A DNA stretch of 64,000 nt from a bacterium (lineage in GTDB: Bacteria; Auribacterota; Tritonobacteria; UBA1439). Made by a program: the position numbers and the translations under genes. The notes beneath the pieces are model-generated. The model had not been told where the DNA came from. It saw only the letters and a program-made list of their open reading frames with translations, and did not search any database. The stretch is taken from the NCBI GenBank assembly GCA_028716845.1, contig JAQUPF010000009.1, positions 1 to 64,000 of the forward strand, given 5' to 3'. Below, one piece after another: positions 30,967 to 32,561 of the stretch (position 1 is its first letter; each line of letters begins with the position of its first letter).

Positions 30967-32561
30967 AATTCCACCTCTTTCATTCTTTGTTCTGCTTCCC
31001 TCACCCGCAACTCGCCGGAGATGAGCTTGGGCAGCAGCGCATCGCGCAGGGCGGCGAGGGTCCTGGCTTCGCGAACATTCGAAACGAGGCGCTGCCGAAG
31101 CGGCAGTATCACTCTCAGGGACTGCTCCATCAAAGTCGGCGTCGGTACGGGCAGGTTAGCGCCGACGATGACCTTGGCATTCATGTTTGCCTGAACAGAT
31201 CCGCTCCTGGCTCCCTCTGCATACTCCGCGTACAGCTCTGACTTGAGGAAGCCGTGCAGATAGTAGCTGTGCGCGAGCGATTTCGTCTTCAGGCGTACAA
31301 GGTAGGAAGCGAACACCGCATCAACGTTTTCCTCGATGATGGCAGACTTGCCTGGGTCCGCCATCCGCGCAACGACCAGATCCCCTACCTCTAGGGCGTA
31401 CCTTTCCTTCGCGCCCGGATCCATTCTGCAGTGGGGCACGTCGCCCCATTCGATCCAGTTCCGCTTGTTGATATCTTTCACCCGCAGCAACTTCGGGCCG
31501 ACAGGCTCATCAACAGCACTCGCCGTGTAGCCGTACTGGGTGGAGCATAAGTCGGACAGCTTCTTGATCTCCCACCCCTCCGGAATCTCGCCCAGTTCCG
31601 AGTCCACCAGGCGGTTTGGGAAGAGGTCGGCGAGGGGCTGGGGGAGGCCGGGGGCGAGTAAGTCGCGTCGTCCTATTTCCGCTTTCAGCCATTCGCGCCC
31701 CGAGCCAGTCTTAAGCTTCTTCTCTCGGGCAATCGCGGCTGACTGGGAAGGCTGCTCCTCCCAGTATGCAATGCGACGTGGCGGGTGTCGTTTCGTCCAG
31801 TCGGCCCCCTTGCCCTGGCGGTGTTCTTCGAATCGGCGCTCCACATCTTCCGTATGCCCGATGTAGATGCTTCCGTTGTCGCATTCAAGCGCATAGACGA
31901 ACCACACTCCAGGATGTGGAGAGGCCGGGGTCGCCTGCCTGCCGGCAGGCAGGCGGCCTTCGGCCTTGTCGCGGACGGGGTCGAAGTTTACGAACCACGA
32001 CTTGAAGAGCGCCCGCGCCATCGCCTCCAGCGTCTCACTCATTCGCCTGTTCAGCTCGATCTTGTCGTCCAGCGTGCCGAGGATATGGGCGATTGCATGT
32101 TGGTTGCTTTCATCTGGGATTCGAATCTGGATCTGTTTGAGGGCACTCCCAGAAAGCTCTCTGAATGTTGACCCGCTCGCATGCCGCTCCAACTCTTCGG
32201 TGTTCGCTCTTAGCCAGTAGTAAATAAATTCCGGAACATAACCCGGTTTGAGAATCATATTCCTAAACCCTTGATTCGTTGCGATTGGATTCTTTGCAAT
32301 AGCTACATAGCCGATAGGAGCTCGAGAAGATAGCAACACGGTATGTGTCGGAAGCAACTGCGCCGAACAATTGGCTAAACCTTGTCGCGAAAGATTGCGC
32401 TCGCCACGCGAGACATAGCGCTCGTGAGCCTGGGATAAATCTTTGGGAGTTAACCACGGGATATCGCCGTCGAAGTTGGAGGGGTCCTTCGTCGACGGCG
32501 TACTGCCGCCAATAACATCAGCGATGTCATCAATGCGATATTCTCGCCATTCACTGATCAT
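30963..32561 (-). CDS. hsdS: Type I restriction specificity subunit with an internal GIY-YIG nuclease domain
   Basis: A 532-residue HsdS with two target recognition domains (about 1-150 and 328-455) and two conserved helical regions (MSETLEAMARALFKSWFVNFDPVRDKAEGR, and LAALRDALLPKLISGELRV near the end). Typical HsdS reads straight from EGR into PGLPQPLADLFP; here about 99 residues (204-302) are inserted at that point. The insert begins with LPAGRQA, encoded by a palindrome, and continues with a complete GIY-YIG domain. Its length is about 100 residues above normal. It binds HsdM and sets target sequence; the effect of the insert is unknown. Confidence 0.92.
   Translation of the reverse strand: MISEWREYRIDDIADVIGGSTPSTKDPSNFDGDIPWLTPKDLSQAHERYVSRGERNLSRQGLANCSAQLLPTHTVLLSSRAPIGYVAIAKNPIATNQGFRNMILKPGYVPEFIYYWLRANTEELERHASGSTFRELSGSALKQIQIRIPDESNQHAIAHILGTLDDKIELNRRMSETLEAMARALFKSWFVNFDPVRDKAEGRLPAGRQATPASPHPGVWFVYALECDNGSIYIGHTEDVERRFEEHRQGKGADWTKRHPPRRIAYWEEQPSQSAAIAREKKLKTGSGREWLKAEIGRRDLLAPGLPQPLADLFPNRLVDSELGEIPEGWEIKKLSDLCSTQYGYTASAVDEPVGPKLLRVKDINKRNWIEWGDVPHCRMDPGAKERYALEVGDLVVARMADPGKSAIIEENVDAVFASYLVRLKTKSLAHSYYLHGFLKSELYAEYAEGARSGSVQANMNAKVIVGANLPVPTPTLMEQSLRVILPLRQRLVSNVREARTLAALRDALLPKLISGELRVREAEQRMKEVEL
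31671..31910 (-). other. GIY-YIG endonuclease domain inserted in hsdS
   Basis: HsdS residues about 218-297. VYAL (222-225) and IYIG (232-235) are the two namesake strands; R242 in ERRFEEH, H247 and E280 in AREKKLKTG occupy the usual catalytic positions of single-domain YhbQ/UvrC-type nucleases. The active-site set looks intact. The frame is continuous with hsdS on both sides. Confidence 0.85.
31933..31954. repeat. 22-bp perfect palindrome, in frame in hsdS
   Basis: GCCTGCCTGCC directly followed by its reverse complement. In the coding strand it yields LPAGRQA at HsdS 204-210, at the left edge of the GIY-YIG insertion. Confidence 0.9.

Follow-up and report, generated by a model that had tools for sequence, protein, structure and literature searches.

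A GIY-YIG nuclease domain in a type I HsdS subunit is probably a copy of a mobile, palindrome-ended element

Introduction

A GIY-YIG nuclease domain lodged between the two recognition domains of a type I restriction-modification (RM) specificity subunit provokes a question: has the enzyme gained a working part, or does it carry a mobile element that it tolerates? The original prediction left both readings standing: the insert might represent an RM architecture of a new kind, or a mobile module caught in a permissive loop. To our knowledge, defence genes evolve by the swapping of parts, and the agents that move such parts in frame are mostly unknown. We examined the window (the whole 64,000-nucleotide stretch of contig JAQUPF010000009.1) and surveyed other genomes for related inserts.

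The insert in HsdS

The window's hsdS (30963..32561, minus strand) is a single open frame of 532 amino acids, identified with Pfam and AlphaFold; its best match in the PDB is 1yf2. As in a type I HsdS, two target recognition domains are joined by conserved helices (residues 151–191 and 475–515 in the AlphaFold model), and hsdM and hsdR are linked to the gene. The protein comprises, in order, recognition domain 1, the central helix, the GIY-YIG insert, recognition domain 2, and the C-terminal helix. Pfam places Methylase_S at residues 3–179 (2.7e-40) and GIY-YIG at residues 220–287 (7.5e-15; 55 bits against a cut-off of 22.6).

The insert (31650..31952, minus strand), delimited by the empty linkers of relatives and by the predicted hinges, runs from residue 204, where palindrome-coded LPAGRQ begins, to about residue 304. 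As translated, it consists of a LPAGRQATPASPHPG linker, the GIY-YIG domain, and a short C-terminal linker to ...LLAP. The stretch from FKSWFV to ELGxIPxGW is mostly 46–47 residues long in 55 parsed relatives, versus about 145 in the window's HsdS; where the insert stands, relatives have the short linker FDPVRAKAEGR-(DP)GLP..LFP. Together with Pfam and AlphaFold, this comparison bears out the prediction that a complete GIY-YIG domain sits in frame in the central linker of HsdS. The nuclease core (31665..31907, minus strand; VYA..YIG, R242/R243, H247, and E280) was delineated with Pfam, Foldseek, and an alignment of 12 module rows, in which Y, G, R, H, and E are invariant. Indeed, R242, H247, and E280, all named in the prediction, are present, and by sequence and predicted structure the insert has a GIY-YIG fold with catalytic Tyr, Arg, and Glu. 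Because R243 is the arginine that never varies in the 12 rows, the alignment makes it more likely than R242 to be the catalytic one.

The AlphaFold model of HsdS, based on 15 aligned sequences, has a mean pLDDT of 87.5. Both recognition domains and both long helices are kept, and the model aligns over its full length (531 columns, E 5e-23) with 1yf2, a solved type I S subunit. A well-folded nuclease (pLDDT mostly 80–96) lies between two floppy hinges: residues 205–210 and 301–305, at the edges of the insert, are the only weak stretches (pLDDT < 50) inside the chain. Foldseek matched the insert to 1zg2 (UPF0213) at 38% identity. Since the central linker tolerates inserts, we infer that the window's HsdS is still functional. 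Other HsdS genes have different translated, repeat-like stretches in the same linker (L076:2-1546 and L101:3528-4850; SPLEGESARQG... and PSPSGRGAGGEG), which seems to be a general landing place for inserts.

Might the insert be spliced, as an intein or intron, rather than form a permanent domain? The insertion is precise and clean, nucleases of this type are known from introns, and one copy of the module described below has weak similarity to group I intron endonucleases. However, only linker residues flank the nuclease, and searches for a ribozyme core or splicing domain returned no match to an intron model and no intein domain in Pfam. We consider splicing very improbable.

Other copies of the module

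The survey covered about 1,200 genomes and a scan of GTDB, with profile searches of 395, 362, and 358 genomes from three phyla; host genes were named with Pfam and PADLOC. We found at least 22 further members of this GIY-YIG subfamily, located in HsdS, HsdM, HsdR, HmaA, HmaB, and a PD-(D/E)XK nuclease, a lower bound since at most 12–14 candidates per genome were initially scored in the large surveys. Besides HsdS, the hosts comprise at least five kinds of defence-type gene in several phyla, and the module occupies at least nine sites.

The search of HsdS homologs that the prediction had proposed recovered the same fusion twice: a GTDB scan for the HsdS center yielded two full HsdS fusions, L072, from a Verrucomicrobia metagenome-assembled genome (MAG), and L073, from Marinilabilia salmonicolor JCM 21150, a cultured strain in which the fusion lies in a complete operon. 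The scan also turned up two loci, L074 and L075, whose HsdM has a related GIY-YIG domain in its C-terminal loop, and the L074 operon has a further module copy in HsdR. Elsewhere, the module resides in HsdM (G061, G062, G622, and G748; worn copies in G356, G396, and G731), at two sites in HsdR (G219, G412, G1113, and G061; the second in G1096), in HmaB (G163, G396, G717, and G156), in HmaA (G517), and in the PD-(D/E)XK nuclease (G316). Two copies situated directly behind hsdS genes have no long reading frame to themselves. That the hosts are mainly metagenome bins would fit an assembly or binning artefact; the fusion in cultured M. salmonicolor and the recurrence in many genomes, the Verrucomicrobia MAG among them, refute such an error for the module family, and an artefact is hardly credible.

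All copies scoring above 100 bits lie in or directly behind a type I RM, Hma, or PD-(D/E)XK gene, and free-standing GIY-YIG genes score at most 84. Among the candidates scored in the surveyed genomes, there are one or two copies per genome and none outside the listed host genes; the search profile started from RM copies, which bears on this apparent restriction to defence genes. The module often occupies the identical site in different phyla. No module was detected in the viral contigs searched, and the plasmids and phages searched held only relatives of less than 60% identity, of which the annotated ones are free-standing GIY-YIG genes. The notion that GIY-YIG copies are scattered through the window's own genome was rejected, as its other GIY-YIG genes encode UvrC or are ordinary free-standing ones.

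The prediction had held that the same sequence at random sites in unrelated genes would mark it as mobile junk. It does occur in several unrelated genes, but not at random, every copy found lying at type I RM, Hma, or PD-(D/E)XK loci. Given the restricted hosts, the recurrent sites across phyla, and low amino-acid change against saturated synonymous change, that label is too simple.

DNA ends and empty sites

Outside HsdS, the modules are mostly units of 278–296 bp with inverted ends, CTGCCTGCGCC...GGCGCGGCAGGCAGG. The 12 copies measured there span that range (eight are exactly 281 bp) amid unrelated surroundings; they start with CTGCCTGCGCCG or near it and finish with GGCGCGGCAGGCAGG or near it. 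Where amino acids are identical, codon agreement is 83% at the ends versus 37% in the interior, and the value for the end codons exceeded that of every one of 2000 random column sets drawn from conserved interior positions. Protein constraint alone is insufficient to explain this agreement, which is consistent with recent homogenization of the ends or with constraint on them at the DNA level.

Terminal inverted repeats at defined ends are a property of the copies outside HsdS. The window's copy and L072 have the full palindrome on one side, not both canonical ends (the window's copy lacks the canonical right end), and L073 has no palindrome; the HsdS copies are therefore less canonical and are assigned to the family by sequence and tree. 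Because the window's copy has kept its nuclease but only one full palindrome, it is probably old and settled.

Related genomes were compared, as the prediction had advised, and an empty site was found in the window itself. The window's full-length hsdR (23854..27234, minus strand; Pfam) encodes a protein 90% identical over 780 amino acids to the HsdR of G219. The latter contains a clean, exact, in-frame module of 282 bp; the window's gene is empty there (24762..24763, minus strand, between TTCCAC and GGGTTT), reading TTCCACGGG. Thus, the module is in HsdR in one operon and in HsdS in a near relative. Comparison with occupied hsdM genes of other genomes likewise identified the empty version of their C-terminal site at 33376–33405 (minus strand) in the window's hsdM (33274..35019, minus strand; Pfam). 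Occupied and empty alleles therefore exist at one fixed site, in HsdR as in HsdM, as is typical of homing. No target-site duplication accompanies the G219 HsdR insertion when it is compared with the window's empty site. At the G061 HsdR copy, an apparent 7-bp duplication (CTTCGAC) proved, by comparison with the empty site, to be an H-to-D codon coincidence and was rejected.

Other features of the operon were noted. In the region 27104–28767, a Schlafen/AlbA_2 gene lies between the full-length hsdR and a second hsdR start (28498–28767); the two starts share 157 bp at 89% identity, as if the Schlafen/AlbA_2 gene had inserted with partial duplication of hsdR. Two genes, at 29050–30966 (638 amino acids) and 32618–33253 (211 amino acids), have no Pfam match and are possible RM accessory genes.

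Palindromes and mini-elements

According to the prediction, the insert enters through a palindrome-encoded LPAGRQA. A pattern search located the perfect palindrome CTGCCTGCCGGCAGGCAG, coding LPAGRQ, at exactly this N-terminal edge (31935..31952) and, in frame in hsdM, another perfect copy (34213..34230); the matching place in G219 hsdM holds a near copy. A search of the whole 2.68-Mb genome that allowed up to two mismatches recovered three copies of CTGCCTGCCGGCAGGCAG (one with one mismatch), all in a 2.3-kb segment of the hsdM-hsdS stretch, and shuffling gives an expectation of 0.01 for the window. A genome-wide repeat was accordingly rejected, as all three copies are in one operon. In the Verrucomicrobia relative (genome of 8.2 Mb), the sole exact copy adjoins the HsdS insert. 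The palindrome thus travels with the operon.

Besides full modules, the same genes and operons hold mini-elements: hairpins of 18–38 bp, with ends the same as or similar to those of the module, that are read through in frame. The window has two in HsdM, including a nested palindromic one in frame at 33544..33573, and a worn, degenerate one in HsdR (26566..26607, minus strand). G219 has three in HsdR and two in HsdM; G061, two in HsdR and one in HsdM; and G163, three in HmaB and three in an HsdM. The last of these is an HsdM-like type I gene (L219:7025-9202), far from the HmaB locus, with its three palindromic mini-elements in frame. We infer that mini-elements are the module minus its center, as a miniature is to a full element. 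The palindrome of the window's insert belongs to a family resembling the joined ends of the module and is not a private entry point. Separately, a looser palindrome-end pattern has 48 matches across the Brocadiaceae genome G062 (L221-L238); many share the identical 27-mer CTGCCTGCGCCGCAGCGCGGCAGGCAG, and those fetched lie mostly outside long frames.

Tree, constraint, and decay

A tree was computed from 19 modules and 35 free-standing domains; it rests on only 95 columns, and many forks are open. The modules form one group apart from the free-standing GIY-YIG genes (80/93; 80% of bootstraps). At least six changes of host gene occur on the module tree (shuffled mean 11.4), along with eight changes of site and ten of phylum, the last no fewer than in shuffled trees. 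Clustering by host gene and site exceeds chance, so between-gene moves are rare. Taken together, these counts indicate that modules move freely among organisms; usually they travel with, or insert into, the same gene, and at times they enter a different one.

Module pairs at one site have dN of about 0.09–0.4, with dS mostly saturated; the module is under strong amino-acid constraint, although the saturation renders the ratios imprecise. From its conserved residues, the element is predicted to be usually catalytically intact. Worn copies also exist, with stops in G156, G517, and G731 and a remnant in G396, sequencing errors being possible for decay calls in bins. In G356, a compensated double frameshift leaves the HsdM frame open but destroys the nuclease. 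In G061 hsdR (L156 1501-1836), a frameshift stems from an additional 4-bp CCTG unit at the left end of the module; the tetranucleotide repeats there could allow phase variation, or this could be an assembly error.

Constraint of this kind is also expected of a working host domain: a GIY-YIG nuclease recruited to type I and Hma complexes that cuts or nicks near recognition sites, much like motor-less type IIB/IIG enzymes. Its active-site residues are invariant in the aligned modules, dN is low against saturated dS, and the domain is in frame within DNA-processing defence enzymes. The HsdS and HsdM C-terminal sites are, from the established structure of type I methylases, probably close together in the complex; the AlphaFold model of the HsdM fusion (pLDDT 43 overall, the GIY domain alone about 76–93) is too shallow for placing the module. 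Engineered proteins that join the HsdR nuclease to HsdM fold and methylate, although they did not restrict (PMC6158711). On the other hand, HsdR carries the module despite having its own nuclease, the window's operon already has a full-length HsdR, the module is rare and occupies several sites, and, barring sequencing error, G356 HsdM keeps its frame with the nuclease destroyed. We regard such a function as somewhat unlikely; it concerns present activity and is compatible with a mobile origin.

Could the module instead be a once-mobile passenger, now neutral in a tolerant loop and carried to new genomes only when RM operons are transferred horizontally? The other translated repeats in the HsdS linker (L076 and L101) and the stops, frameshifts, and remnant in G156, G517, G731, G061 HsdR, and G396 favor this account, but most copies keep an intact nuclease across divergences that saturate dS. 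It appears unlikely.

A mobile, palindrome-ended element

The insert is, in our estimation, quite probably one copy of a GIY-YIG element of ~280 bp that is mobile, has palindromic ends, is translated together with its host gene, and is tolerated in a loop. One sequence group is found in several unrelated genes, with near-fixed length and ends outside HsdS, open in-frame copies, an empty HsdR site, and host switching. Of the two readings in the original prediction, the mobile module in a tolerant loop is thus strongly supported as the origin; the new RM architecture survives as a possible host function, in that the insert may be a putative extra nuclease tethered to the M2S complex.

The element would consist of one GIY-YIG reading frame whose DNA ends are palindrome halves (CTGCCTGCGCC...GGCGCGGCAGGCAGG). 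It would enter protein genes in the orientation and phase that preserve an open frame and, translated through, would form a folded domain held in the host protein by flexible linkers. Homing endonucleases cut an empty allele and are copied in by break repair. The nuclease class and the shared sites suggest that the GIY-YIG enzyme most likely drives its own spread similarly, with empty alleles or joined-end palindromes as its cutting targets. The lack of any observed target duplication makes transposition less likely. We know of no GIY-YIG enzyme that moves an element with inverted ends. By folding separately in permissive loops, such a selfish element could survive while leaving host and frame unharmed.

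Several known systems share some of these features. Rickettsia palindromic elements and REP/MITE families place short palindromes in frame in coding genes and include mini copies; unlike the module, they carry no nuclease. RAYT, the REP-linked enzyme, is a Y1 transposase, not a GIY-YIG protein. Known invasive GIY-YIG nucleases have the same fold and tendency to invade new loci; in the parts of that literature available to us, they reside in introns, inteins, or free-standing genes, and no insertion in HsdS, HsdM, or HsdR was found. Type IIB/IIG enzymes are motor-less. Like engineered nuclease-HsdM fusions, they join a nuclease covalently to a methylase-specificity complex, but theirs is a PD-(D/E)XK nuclease in a fixed architecture without mobile ends (PMC6158711). 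The ShiLan domain and related insertions occur in phage DNA methylase genes (PMC11855218). ShiLan, too, is an unspliced, homing-like, endonuclease-carrying insertion open in the host frame; however, it is an HNH enzyme of phages, read out of the host frame, with no palindromic ends described (PMC11855218), whereas the module is a GIY-YIG enzyme of bacterial defence genes, read in the host frame, with palindromic ends and mini copies.

The non-subscription literature searched contained no description of such GIY-YIG insertions, and the unit appears to be a previously undescribed mobile element, one that ends up as a part of each protein it invades. Tentatively, and at somewhat less than an even chance, it would represent a new class: palindrome-ended, nuclease-coding, permanently translated, attended by non-autonomous mini-palindromes, specialized for defence genes, and possibly a second nuclease for its hosts. 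If so, one agent that moves parts among defence genes would be an element that encodes a nuclease, has defined DNA ends, and persists as a domain within RM and Hma proteins. Palindromic repeats would then be linked to a GIY-YIG enzyme, an idea that the cultured strain makes testable.
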